Assembly (NCBI GenBank): GCA_026713545.1
Contig: JAPOOG010000132.1
Span: 1-64,000, forward strand
Direction: 5' to 3'
DNA: 64,000 nucleotides
DNA from: Bryobacterales bacterium
GTDB taxonomy: Bacteria > Acidobacteriota > Terriglobia > Bryobacterales > UBA6623
Below are positions 7,215 to 26,337 of the stretch, piece after piece (within the stretch, counting starts at the first letter, position 1; each line of letters opens with the position of its first letter). The notes beneath the pieces were generated by a model. It worked only from the letters and a program-made list of their open reading frames with translations, did not search any database and was not told the DNA's origin. Position numbers and translations under genes: made by a program.

Positions 7215-8804
7215 TCAAGCGCGCCGCGCTTTCCAGGTGGCTTTACCGTATTCTCCGAGGCCCAAGTCGCCGCTCATCTCGTCGCCTCGCAAAGTTCCCT
7301 TGAAGAAGTACCGCATGGCAGCCGCTTCATACCTGCCGCGGCTATCGAACTCGACTTTGTCTCCGTCGATTTCGCCCTTCACCTTGCCCTGCGCGATGCG
7401 GCCGCGGTGGAGGCCGGTGATTTCGTTGCCCTTGTTCTGTAAATACATCGTGTGGCGCACCGTCGTTCCGATGTAGGAGACATCGACCTCCCAATGGCCG
7501 TCGAGACTTCCGAACGGCGCGGCGAGCTTGCGTGGCTGTTTCTTGCCGGGCGCGTTCTTGAAGACTTCGTAGAGTCGTTCGGCGACTACTTTATAGTCCT
7601 CAGGCCACATCGCCATCGGCCGGATCAGAAAGTGATTCGTCTCGGTCATTTTCGGGTCCAGCTCCTTTGGATACGCTGTGCTCATGATCCGCGGCTCGCC
7701 GTGCAGCAGTTGTTCGCCGATCTCCCGTGCGACGTAGCCGATCTTGTCCTGATCCCACTCGACACGCATCTCGGGGTAGTAGCCGGGACGCGGCGCTTCC
7801 ATGATCTCGGTCCGCACACCGGGAACCCGCGTTATGCGGTCGCTGATATGGCGATACCAGAACTTGAACTGGTTGTATTCCTCCTCCATATTTCGCTTCG
7901 TGACCAGATATTCGACCGCCGCGAGAATGCCCATGACCTCCTCTTTGCTGACTTTCATCGGGCGTGCGAACGTGTGATGCGGCGCGCTCGACCAGAAGGC
8001 GATCTCGGTCAAGTCTTTACGTCCCAGCAACAGCCCGGCGCTTTGTGGACCTTTCAGGCTCTTGCCGCCGCTGTAAACGGTGAGGTCCGCGCCGCGTGAC
8101 AGGAACGGGTCGGGCTTCAGCGGAAGTTCGTTGGCGGCGTCGATCAGCAACGGAACACCATGATCGTGAGCCGCCTTCGCGAGAGCTTCGAGCGGGATGC
8201 GGCTCGCGGCATCTTGGATGCGCGCTCCAGCGAAGGCCATGCACGTCCTTGGGCCGAAGGCTTTCCGGAGGTCGGCGACGGTCGCGACATTGATCATCTT
8301 CGCGCCGGTCATTCGAATCGCGTGATCGTAGATCGAGCTGGTTTCACGAAAAGCGACGACTTCATCGTTGAGACCGTCGGTGTTGGGAACTTGTTGCAAC
8401 GCCTCGATGTCGCCGCCGCACATGCAGGCCAGCGTCGCGCTTGTCAGGCATCCAGCCGCTCCCGATCCGATGAAAGCGCCCGGCACGTCGAGAAGTTCCG
8501 CGATACGGGACGCCGCCTTCTGTAGCAACTCTTGCAAATTGACGTGGTAGAACGACGCTTCGTAGATGGCTTCGGAAACCTCAGGCAACAAAACAGCGCC
8601 GCCGTTCATCGTGCGCGTCGAAGTGAGGTTGATGAACGGCTCGATACCCACGCTCTGATAGATATTCGGTCCCTTGCCGCGCTGAGGCAGCCGTGCGGCG
8701 GCCGATGCGCCGGGGGCCAGCAGTCCGGCTGCCGCCAAAAACGAACCGGCACGGAACACCTCACGCCGGTTGACGGTTCTCGAAGAATGTTTTGTCAATT
8801 TCAT
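7215..8804 (-). CDS. Exported SelA-like PLP-dependent protein with C-terminal beta domain
   Basis: The 529-residue protein has three parts. (1) A twin-arginine-type signal (NRREVFRAGSFLAAAGLLAPG, residues 12-32). (2) A fold-type I PLP domain of the SelA/D-glucosaminate-6-phosphate ammonia-lyase kind, with Asp222 (LLIDAANE) as the likely cofactor-nitrogen partner and Lys248 (VYSGGKSLKGPQSAG) as the Schiff-base lysine. (3) About 100 residues from 430 that look like beta strands (GHWEVDVSYIG, MYLQNKGNEITG, FKGTLRGDEMSGDL), like a small lipocalin-type barrel. It is not expected to make selenocysteyl-tRNA, since it is exported. The real reaction is unknown. The ATG at 8804 follows GGGAGGGAGC. A longer frame begins upstream but would put the signal peptide inside the protein. 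Confidence 0.78.
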   Translation of the reverse strand: MKLTKHSSRTVNRREVFRAGSFLAAAGLLAPGASAAARLPQRGKGPNIYQSVGIEPFINLTSTRTMNGGAVLLPEVSEAIYEASFYHVNLQELLQKAASRIAELLDVPGAFIGSGAAGCLTSATLACMCGGDIEALQQVPNTDGLNDEVVAFRETSSIYDHAIRMTGAKMINVATVADLRKAFGPRTCMAFAGARIQDAASRIPLEALAKAAHDHGVPLLIDAANELPLKPDPFLSRGADLTVYSGGKSLKGPQSAGLLLGRKDLTEIAFWSSAPHHTFARPMKVSKEEVMGILAAVEYLVTKRNMEEEYNQFKFWYRHISDRITRVPGVRTEIMEAPRPGYYPEMRVEWDQDKIGYVAREIGEQLLHGEPRIMSTAYPKELDPKMTETNHFLIRPMAMWPEDYKVVAERLYEVFKNAPGKKQPRKLAAPFGSLDGHWEVDVSYIGTTVRHTMYLQNKGNEITGLHRGRIAQGKVKGEIDGDKVEFDSRGRYEAAAMRYFFKGTLRGDEMSGDLGLGEYGKATWKARRA

Positions 8805-9000
8805 GTTTGCTCCCTCCCGCTGAGGAGATTGTACACGCTGTTGGGCGCAGCAGCCTGTTGGCAACGTTGGATATCGAGGGAAAAACCGAGAATGCGCATG
8901 TCGTATTCCGTCACGATTCAGGCAGGAAGGTCGTTCAGTGAAACATCCAGCTCCTTTCCGCATCCAAAAGAATAGAGGCACGATGCGACGAGGAGGGCGT

Positions 9001-14705: not shown

Positions 14706-14761
14706 CCGTTCGCCTCGGGCGCCCAGGACAGCCGCGCAACGCCGCGGCATCGTTGCGCATC

Positions 14762-15634
14762 ATGAAATCACCTGCTTGCGTCACACGCCGCACCCTGCTT
14801 CAGGCAGTGGCCCTTGGTACAGCCCGCGCGGGTTCGGCAGCGGCTGTCGAGGAGGAATGGGCCGTCAAACCGGATGGCCCCGACTTCGGCGGCTTACGAG
14901 TCGGCCTCACGACTTTCAGCACCAGGGAGCTCACGCTCGATCAGACCATTGCTCTGCTCAAACAAACCGGCGTTCGAAATATCGCTCTGAAATATTTCCA
15001 TCTGCCTCTGGACAGCACGAAAGAGGAACGCCGGCTGACCATCCGCAAGATCCACGATGCGGGCCTCACATTGGCGGGCTGCGGTGTGATCGGCCTGAGC
15101 GGTGACGATAAGTCTGTCCGAGACCGCCTCGATTATGTGCAAGACATCGGTTCTCCCTCGGTCACCGCCACGACGACCGCCGAGCGGTTGGAGCAGCTTG
15201 ACCGCATCATCAAGGACTACGGGGATATCAAGATCGCCATCCACACCCACGGACCCGAAGACGACTTGAGTTATTGGCGCTGGTGGGCGGCCAAGATCAT
15301 CGACAAGATTCGGCATCTCGATTCCCGTATCGGCGTCTGTGTTGACGTCGGACATACTTTCCGTGTGCCCATCGACCCGTCAGCAGCAATTCGCGCCTGC
15401 GGCGATCGTCTGTATGATGTGCACCTCAAGGATCTGAAGGAAGCCAGCCGGCGCCGGCTTGATGTCCCCGTCGGTCGCGGCATTGTCGATATACCCGCTA
15501 TCATGCGCTCCCTGCGAGATGCGAACTACCGTCATCACGTCGCACTGGAGTACGAGGCGGAGCCCGAAGCTCCCGAGTTCGGCATTGCCGAGAGTTTCGG
15601 TTACTTGCGGGGACTTCTGTATCCGAGGGCCTGA
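14762..15634 (+). CDS. Exported sugar phosphate isomerase/epimerase-like TIM-barrel protein
   Basis: The 290-residue protein opens with a twin-arginine-type signal (TRRTLLQAVALGTARAGSAAA). It continues as an AP endonuclease 2/xylose isomerase-like barrel: VGLTTFSTRELTLDQTI at the first strand, IAIHTHGPED, the probable metal-binding CVDVGHTFR, YDVHLKDLKEAS and the glutamate in HVALEYEAEPE. These supply the His/Asp/Glu set that normally binds a divalent metal for ketose-aldose isomerisation. I chose the ATG at 14762; a TTG nine bases earlier is also possible. It follows the PSD1 gene by 56 bp and may be cotranscribed. Exported isomerase-like proteins beside PSD1 genes are common in this kind of genome, suggesting work on imported or periplasmic sugars. 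Confidence 0.78.
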   Translation: MKSPACVTRRTLLQAVALGTARAGSAAAVEEEWAVKPDGPDFGGLRVGLTTFSTRELTLDQTIALLKQTGVRNIALKYFHLPLDSTKEERRLTIRKIHDAGLTLAGCGVIGLSGDDKSVRDRLDYVQDIGSPSVTATTTAERLEQLDRIIKDYGDIKIAIHTHGPEDDLSYWRWWAAKIIDKIRHLDSRIGVCVDVGHTFRVPIDPSAAIRACGDRLYDVHLKDLKEASRRRLDVPVGRGIVDIPAIMRSLRDANYRHHVALEYEAEPEAPEFGIAESFGYLRGLLYPRA

Positions 15635-24889: not shown

Positions 24890-25840
24890 TCAAGCAGCCT
24901 CTGGGAATGGCCAAAGCCGCTCGATCGTCTTGCTCAGGATCCACTCGAGATCCTCGTCGTTGAAGAAGTCCATCTCGTCGCGGACAATTTCGAGCGTCTT
25001 GACGTAGTCGATCTTCCTTTTCGATACCGGCCAATCCGTGCCCCACATGATGCGATTCGGGCCGAACGCGTCATAGACGGTCTTCACTTGATCCCAGGTA
25101 TCGCGATGCGGATAGGGTTCGTCAGAGATGCTCCAAGTGTGCGAGATCTTGCAGTAAACCCGCGGGAACGTTGCGAGGGTCAGCAACTTCTGGAGTTCTT
25201 CCGGCGGATCTGTCGTCTTGCAATCAGCCATGTGGTCGATCACGACATCCATGTCGGGGTGCTTTTCGATGTGCTTCTGCACATCGGGCAGACGCCCCGT
25301 CTTGGTCAGGATCAGCATCGGGACTCCGAGTTGCTCGGCTCGGTCCCAGATCGGATCCATTAACTCGTTGTTCGTGATCCAATTGCCGACTTCCGACACG
25401 GACGGACTCAGGCGCACTCCCTTGAAGCCCCATTCTTCCGTCCACTTCGATAGCTCGTCCGCAGCATCTCTCGCCTCAGGGTTGACGCGGCAGACACCTT
25501 GAAACTTGTCGGGATACTTCTTCATTACGTCGCCGACGTAACGGCAGTCCCAACGGTAATGAAAGGGGTGCACGATCACCGTGTGAACGACGCCATGGGT
25601 GGCCATCAAGTCGAGCAGCATTTCCGCCGTGGCGTCTTCTTTAGGGGGATTCTTGTTCTCCTCCGGCCAAGGGTAAGCCGGATCGTTCACCCAGACGTGG
25701 ACATGAGGATCGATAATCTTCAGCGGTTTTGATGCAGCCTGTTCGGGCTCAGGCGGCTCGGACCCACAACCGGAAGCACCGGCGATAGCCCCTGCAGCCA
25801 GCAGACCGGCAAATCCGCGGCGCGACAATGACGTGGACAT
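24890..25840 (-). CDS. Amidohydrolase-2 family lipoprotein
   Basis: The 316-residue protein starts with SRRGFAGLLAAGAIAGASGC, a twin-arginine signal ending in a lipobox, so it should be exported folded and lipid-anchored at Cys. The rest is a metal-dependent amidohydrolase barrel: IIDPHVHVW with the HxH metal pair after the first strand, KGVRLSPSVSEV, DVVIDHMADC and MWGTDWP with the late aspartate. Relatives hydrolyse lactones or decarboxylate aromatic acids, and the substrate here is unknown. I chose the ATG at 25840; the frame runs 24 codons further upstream. Beyond it lie about 500 bp without a gene, then the divergent sigma factor. The 245 bp towards the tRNA hold no recognised feature. 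Confidence 0.82.
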   Translation of the reverse strand: MSTSLSRRGFAGLLAAGAIAGASGCGSEPPEPEQAASKPLKIIDPHVHVWVNDPAYPWPEENKNPPKEDATAEMLLDLMATHGVVHTVIVHPFHYRWDCRYVGDVMKKYPDKFQGVCRVNPEARDAADELSKWTEEWGFKGVRLSPSVSEVGNWITNNELMDPIWDRAEQLGVPMLILTKTGRLPDVQKHIEKHPDMDVVIDHMADCKTTDPPEELQKLLTLATFPRVYCKISHTWSISDEPYPHRDTWDQVKTVYDAFGPNRIMWGTDWPVSKRKIDYVKTLEIVRDEMDFFNDEDLEWILSKTIERLWPFPEAA

Positions 25841-26337
25841 GGAAGGATTGTAGAACACGAAACGGCGTCCTGGTTCAGCATAGAGCGGCGCGAACTGGAA
25901 GCAGAGCGTCATGGTGTTCCCACGCCCCCTCTGACAGCCTTAAGGATAGAAGTCGAACGTAGCAGCGTCGGGCATCAAGGGTCCATAGAACACGCGTCTT
26001 GGAAAGGACAGGTGCAGCCGGCCGACTCGCGCCGCCGGGCTTCATGAATTGCATGGTCATGTGGGATGAACCTGGCTTCGAACAGCCTGTCGATGCTTTC
26101 GGCAACCACATCCCACCAAAAAGATCCTTCCTGCTCACTGACCGCGATCTGCGCCCGACCGCAGGCCCTACAATCCCGGCATCCTCATAAGCGTTCTATA
26201 ATCACTGCCTTCCGTGTTGCCGGCGATGGGAAGAGGGTACAGGTTCCATCCTGCACCGAAACCACGCCGGTCGCCGGACGAGCCCTACTGCAATTTGACT
26301 GAAACCAGTCCCTTTACCAATACGTCGAACAGGATGC
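25841..26337. other. Divergent intergenic region between amidohydrolase and sigma factor
   Basis: No convincing coding frame was seen in about 500 bp. A TATAAT at 26197-26202 and a TACAAT at 26169-26174 face the sigma factor, but neither has a good -35 partner. If the sigma factor controls itself, its operator-like promoter should lie here. Confidence 0.35.

Follow-up and report, generated by a model that had tools for sequence, protein, structure and literature searches.

We found that the gene at positions 7215..8804 on the minus strand of the window (the whole 64,000-nucleotide stretch of DNA analysed here) encodes a 529-residue protein that combines a predicted twin-arginine (Tat) signal, a PLP-dependent enzyme of the SelA/DgaE fold and a C-terminal beta domain, which confirms the architecture proposed in the original prediction. 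On the best reading of its sequence, this protein would work most like a DGL-type lyase that has been moved outside the membrane. We consider it moderately probable that the exported enzyme belongs to an extracytoplasmic route in which deacylation is followed by PLP-dependent beta-elimination/deamination and then by hydrolysis through RidA. Computation shows the gene, the fold, the conserved lysine, the Tat-like signal, the paralog expansion, the export signals of the partners, the gene linkage and the joint expansion; export itself, the reaction class, the substrate and the role of the beta domain are inferred.

Translation of the open reading frame (ORF) places the ATG at 8804 and the stop codon at 7215-7217. 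A longer ORF starting with GTG at 8981 was discarded, because GGGAGG stands immediately 5' of the ATG at 8804 and speaks for the shorter start. The ORF is not a chance one, because full-length homologs without frame breaks are present in related genomes at 98%, 84% and 61% identity. Matches to the target protein were found in 38 of 41 related genomes, most of which contain far fewer than this genus.

The target begins with MKLTKHSSRTVNRREVFRAGSFLAAAGLLAPGASA-A, in which the twin-arginine motif N12-R-R-E-V-F17 (8754..8771, minus strand) is followed by an uncharged stretch and a cleavage-like ASA-A site. The predicted signal peptide covers residues 1-35 (8700..8804, minus strand), with cleavage expected after ASA (33-35), and the RR motif, the moderately hydrophobic stretch and the cleavage-like site are those of a putative Tat substrate. 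Homologs look alike at this end, and the Tat-type signal of the original prediction is supported. An RR-plus-hydrophobic N terminus was present in 67 of 73 non-redundant beta-domain members versus 231 of 1045 control ORFs, the simple rule used here thus being positive for 22% of controls in these genomes. RR signals are likewise present on almost every one of the ~23 exported-type paralogs, and the genome encodes the Tat translocase component TatC (205.6 bits). Export is well supported by sequence. The assumption that PLP enzymes work nowhere but in the cytosol found no support: PvdN and PtaA, both PLP enzymes, are exported by Tat in folded form and with bound cofactor (PMC6206403). It is the scale and the setting, rather than Tat export of a PLP enzyme as such, that are unexpected here.

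To define the catalytic domain, we examined an AlphaFold2 model built from an alignment of 64 homologs as a single chain without PLP (pLDDT 92.9, pTM 0.90), in which a PLP domain is followed by eight beta strands. The PLP-dependent domain spans residues 46-418 (7551..8669, minus strand), and its profile match to DGL (7LC0) reaches E=6e-66. The nearest solved structures, with TM-scores normalised by target length, are Cap15 (8T7J, 0.87) and DGL (7LC0, 0.86), followed by SelA at 0.56-0.66; the SelA fold originally assigned was thus the right fold, and it can be sharpened to the nearer DGL/Cap15 type. The target scored 20.8 bits with the SelA model TIGR00474 (cutoff 267.9) and 17.8 bits with the SelA Pfam model PF03841 (cutoff 22.8). 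Aminotran_5 was the sole Pfam model above its cutoff, and that match spans 67 residues near the lysine.

Lys248 (8061..8063, minus strand), within YSGGKSLKGPQ, is the predicted Schiff-base lysine: it aligns with the lysine of the DGL SGAK motif and is Lys in 64 of 64 aligned homologs, in line with the original placing of the active site around it, and its predicted place in the pocket rests on this alignment together with the overall fold match. The DGL lysine is residue 213 by chain counting and is named Lys-217 in the text of the paper (PMC9529869). Asp222 (8139..8141, minus strand), which aligns with DGL Asp189 and is Asp in 64 of 64 homologs, is predicted to pair with the pyridine nitrogen of PLP.

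The target thus shares with DGL the whole-domain fold, the SGxK lysine, the PLP aspartate and an alignment that takes in almost all of the catalytic domain. However, DGL works in the cytosol on a substrate phosphorylated by the PTS, whereas the target has a predicted Tat signal, a GPQ insertion and the added beta domain, and it lacks several DGL residues. The counterpart of DGL His162/163 is Ile196 plus a gap, and the His-His pair occurs in 0 of 64 homologs. DGL Arg301 corresponds to E345 (Arg in 13 of 64 homologs), Arg332 to T376 (Arg is outside the five commonest residues there among the 64), and Arg346, in an alignment judged by eye, to about M397. The carboxylate-side Arg226 corresponds to R262, a position that is Arg in just 46 of 64 homologs. 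With the NCBIfam DgaE models the target scored 129 and 124 bits, far under the cutoffs (385 bits for TIGR01437). Given scores below the curated cutoffs and the loss of both His162/163 and the phosphate arginines, we do not class the target as DgaE.

These losses bear on the probable chemistry. In the DGL reaction the C3 hydroxyl is eliminated first and the amine leaves afterwards, so that water and ammonia are lost; His-163 of DGL protonates the intermediate, and the H163A mutant lets free enamine go (PMC9529869). Because the His-His pair and the phosphate arginines are absent in the exported beta-domain family, a non-phosphorylated substrate and some release of enamine are plausible, and such release would explain an exported RidA partner. 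However, the conserved His pair 276-277 (His in 63 of 64 and 59 of 64 homologs) could act as an alternative proton donor, and the enamine-release step is for this reason not established.

The C-terminal domain, residues 435-529 (7218..7502, minus strand), is an eight-stranded antiparallel beta domain in the AlphaFold2 model and is recognised by its own HMM. The eight strands comprise mature residues 401-493 (precursor 436-528), with 10-residue blocks at pLDDT 92-98, which bears out the earlier view that the last ~100 residues form a separate domain. Within the genome, its profile matches exactly the 12 beta-domain paralogs and nothing else, and no relatives were found in Pfam, in the PDB by sequence or by a barrel-HMM search. 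Weak viral fold matches, one to a phage protein of uncharacterised function (TM-score 0.77, normalised by target length) and one, under significance, to an avidin-family protein, were not accepted as homology. The domain is a family-specific addition, with a probable extracellular role in binding, stability or assembly. At locus L130 (2248-3942), it forms an ORF of its own with its own signal peptide directly 3' of a Tat-PLP ORF; because L130 nests within the beta-domain clade in the catalytic-domain tree, this split arrangement reads as fission.

The fusion is not confined to one gene: it recurs in relatives and in the paralogs of its own genome. Among 26 matches to the target in that genome, ~23 are DgaE-like proteins bearing an RR signal (paralog p4, in this set, has a short and unclear one), one is DgaE-like without a signal and two are other fold-type I enzymes; 12 of the ~23 exported paralogs carry the beta domain. 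In a catalytic-domain tree of 104 rows, made by a quick method with SH-aLRT as the sole support measure, a split divides the exported proteins from DGL, Cap15 and two proteins without a signal (support 98), and all beta-domain members fall into one clade (support 100), pointing to a single origin of the fusion. Two proteins labelled as lacking the domain inside this clade (L108 and L135) have incomplete C termini, L108 lying at a contig end. Cap15 falls together with DGL (support 83, long branches) and not within the exported clade. The clade of the target is spread over several phyla, and RR-plus-hydrophobic N termini persist across three of them. Neither the ~23 exported paralogs, nor the multi-phylum clade, nor the linkage described below had been noticed in the original prediction. 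Four members, mostly from Latescibacterota (L111, L119, L141 and L143), carry the beta domain without an export signal, and RidA and amidohydrolase genes are absent within 3 kb of them.

We further examined gene neighbourhoods. The target is flanked by genes for PutA, an ABC-2 transporter and a PSCyt1/DUF1549 protein, which were discarded as operon partners, G002 and G005 having different ones. Among 80 loci from named genomes, an EF_0837-type amidohydrolase lies within 3 kb in 17 (at most 1.5 expected) and RidA in 14 (at most 1.6 expected), the expectations being taken at the highest genome-wide densities seen and the loci being partly non-independent. By a simple hydropathy rule, 26 of 27 linked amidohydrolases and 14 of 16 linked RidAs carry Tat- or Sec-like signals. 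The amidohydrolases adjoining exported PLP genes exceed the cutoff of NF006689, which they fit among the EF_0837-type models (NF006689, TIGR03583), and differ in that nearly all bear export signals. This linkage, which answers in part the earlier interest in the neighbours, is seen in relatives (Acidobacteriota, Bacteroidota and Streptomyces) but not at the target itself. The full triad of PLP gene, RidA and amidohydrolase occurs in Streptomyces niveus (L144), S. camponoticapitis (L133), Chitinophaga (L142) and Solibacter (L120); the two Streptomyces loci also contain a KDG-kinase-like PfkB and an RraA-like aldolase, and that of S. niveus a D-galactonate-type MFS carrier. On contig 132 of the target's own genome, two amidohydrolases adjoin two exported PLP genes. 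Over 20 genera, with kinship ignored, copy number of the PLP genes correlates with that of the amidohydrolase (rho 0.90) and RidA (0.72), compared with 0.35 for genome size.

Several further arrangements were observed in these regions. Beside the KDG-kinase-like gene of S. camponoticapitis lies a Tat-like homolog of UxuA, of the mannonate dehydratase family (L133:13230-14489). Five tandem EF_0837-type amidohydrolase genes occur elsewhere in the target's own genome (L167, contig C74:58000-72000), with no family PLP gene among the contig's matches. Exported-looking tandem RidA proteins of two or three domains are present at L149, L150, L068:1-1019, L097:5204-6397 and L130:418-1644. PQQ quinoprotein dehydrogenase-like genes stand near exported PLP genes at L127:5632-7800, in a cluster also found at L059, L101, L107, L109, L118 and L128; they are a possible source of aldonic acids.

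In the pathway that we propose, the target would acquire both its fold and its PLP in the cytoplasm and would then be carried by Tat, PLP-bound, to the periplasm or the surface of the cell, where the DGL-like domain would strip off water and nitrogen. The substrate is most likely a 2-amino-3-hydroxy carboxylic acid, with a non-phosphorylated D-glucosaminate-type amino sugar acid and a beta-hydroxy amino acid as candidates. An exported enzyme acting on an amino sugar acid or amino acid, close to what was originally suggested, is plausible. An enamine/imine would arise, and then a 2-keto-3-deoxy acid and ammonia. In relatives, the exported amidohydrolase would act beforehand, deacylating the substrate so that its amine is free, and the exported RidA would hydrolyse the reactive enamine/imine; in the target's own genome both steps would probably depend on unlinked genes. 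The keto acid would then be imported and metabolised.

The best functional analogue appears to be the cytosolic ong cluster of Pseudoalteromonas, in which N-acetylglucosaminic acid is deacetylated, deaminated by a PLP enzyme to KDG and phosphorylated, and in which a RidA protein is essential (PMC9537276). Likened by activities alone, OngB, OngC, OngD and KdgK give the same order of deacetylase, PLP deaminase, RidA and KDG kinase. However, the ong enzymes act in the cytoplasm, following uptake; OngB belongs to the D-aminoacylase/N-acetyl-D-glutamate deacetylase type, and OngC carries the annotation D-amino acid deaminase.

Several observations count against the extracytoplasmic lyase pathway: the target's own neighbours are not the triad, R262 is incompletely conserved, the DgaE models score far below their cutoffs, four beta-domain members lack signals, the RR rule fires on 22% of controls, and substrates probably differ among the ~23 paralogs. 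Cap15, an equally close structure, counts against it as well, being an O2- and PLP-dependent monooxygenase-decarboxylase. An exported oxidase or monooxygenase-decarboxylase of the Cap15 or PvdN kind, modifying an amino-acid-bearing natural product or an envelope compound, is in our judgement unlikely, albeit the most serious competitor. The substrate of Cap15 is a beta-hydroxy-alpha-amino acid, its structure shows 27% identity to the target over the structural alignment, and the required lysines of its RxMKVxKE motif seem to match K284 (Lys in 64 of 64 homologs) and K287 (Lys/Arg in 64 of 64); PvdN is itself a PLP oxygenase exported by Tat. However, Cap15 is a biosynthetic enzyme on the DGL side of the tree with neither signal nor beta domain, the KDG-kinase-like, RraA-like and EF_0837-type neighbours suggest catabolism, and 23 paralogs per genome suit scavenging more than a single tailoring step. 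PvdN and PtaA of Pseudomonas share with the target the export of a folded PLP enzyme, but their role is pyoverdine tailoring, and no PvdN chain was found among the target's PDB sequence matches. We know of neither a RidA/amidohydrolase linkage nor a large paralog expansion for them.

PtaA, a Tat-exported transaminase, and the Aminotran_5 match would also fit an exported fold type I aminotransferase or racemase whose substrates are amino acids of the cell wall or the extracellular space. This is rather improbable, as that match is short, the proteins matched over the whole domain are DGL and Cap15, neither of which is a transaminase, and the linked RidA hints at enamine/imine release. We give still less credence to a decorative RR motif, or to a protein that remains and acts in the cytosol: the four signal-less members are presumably cytosolic, but RR-plus-hydrophobic N termini are kept in nearly all paralogs and in three phyla, the linked RidA and amidohydrolase have export signals too, and so does the detached beta domain at L130. 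It is very improbable that many paralogs are non-catalytic binding proteins that merely retain the fold. Paralog p3 (L011:4701-6260, contig C61 of the same genome) has SGGM where every other exported paralog has SGGK; however, its ortholog in a sister genome (L164) has SGGK, the lysine is kept in 64 of 64 homologs across species and the target retains Lys248. The change in p3 looks like a recent event or a sequencing error, and lysine loss as a family trend was dropped.

PLP and RidA chemistry is usually regarded as cytosolic, and to our knowledge the few exported PLP enzymes come from siderophore tailoring. The occurrence of ~23 exported paralogs in one genome, 12 of them with the beta domain, and of exported partners in relatives is unexpected; in the literature searched, which included few subscription journals, no account of SelA-like exported enzymes accompanied by RidA and amidohydrolase was found. 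If such a large family and its partners are exported as proposed, abundant soil bacteria would run entire nitrogen-releasing pathways beyond the membrane, and a testable role would follow for the exported RidA and EF_0837-type proteins; the absent proton-donor histidine combined with a RidA partner makes a specific prediction on enamine release. A bolder form, to which we give somewhat less than even weight, is that a radiated multi-phylum family carries out PLP chemistry, deacylation and RidA quenching entirely outside the cytoplasm, so that reactive enamines, which are toxic to cytosolic PLP enzymes, would be both made and destroyed there. Elsewhere in the window, RR signals were also observed on a xylose-isomerase-like TIM barrel protein (14753-15634) and on a protein that is amidohydrolase-like from its sequence (24890-25912).
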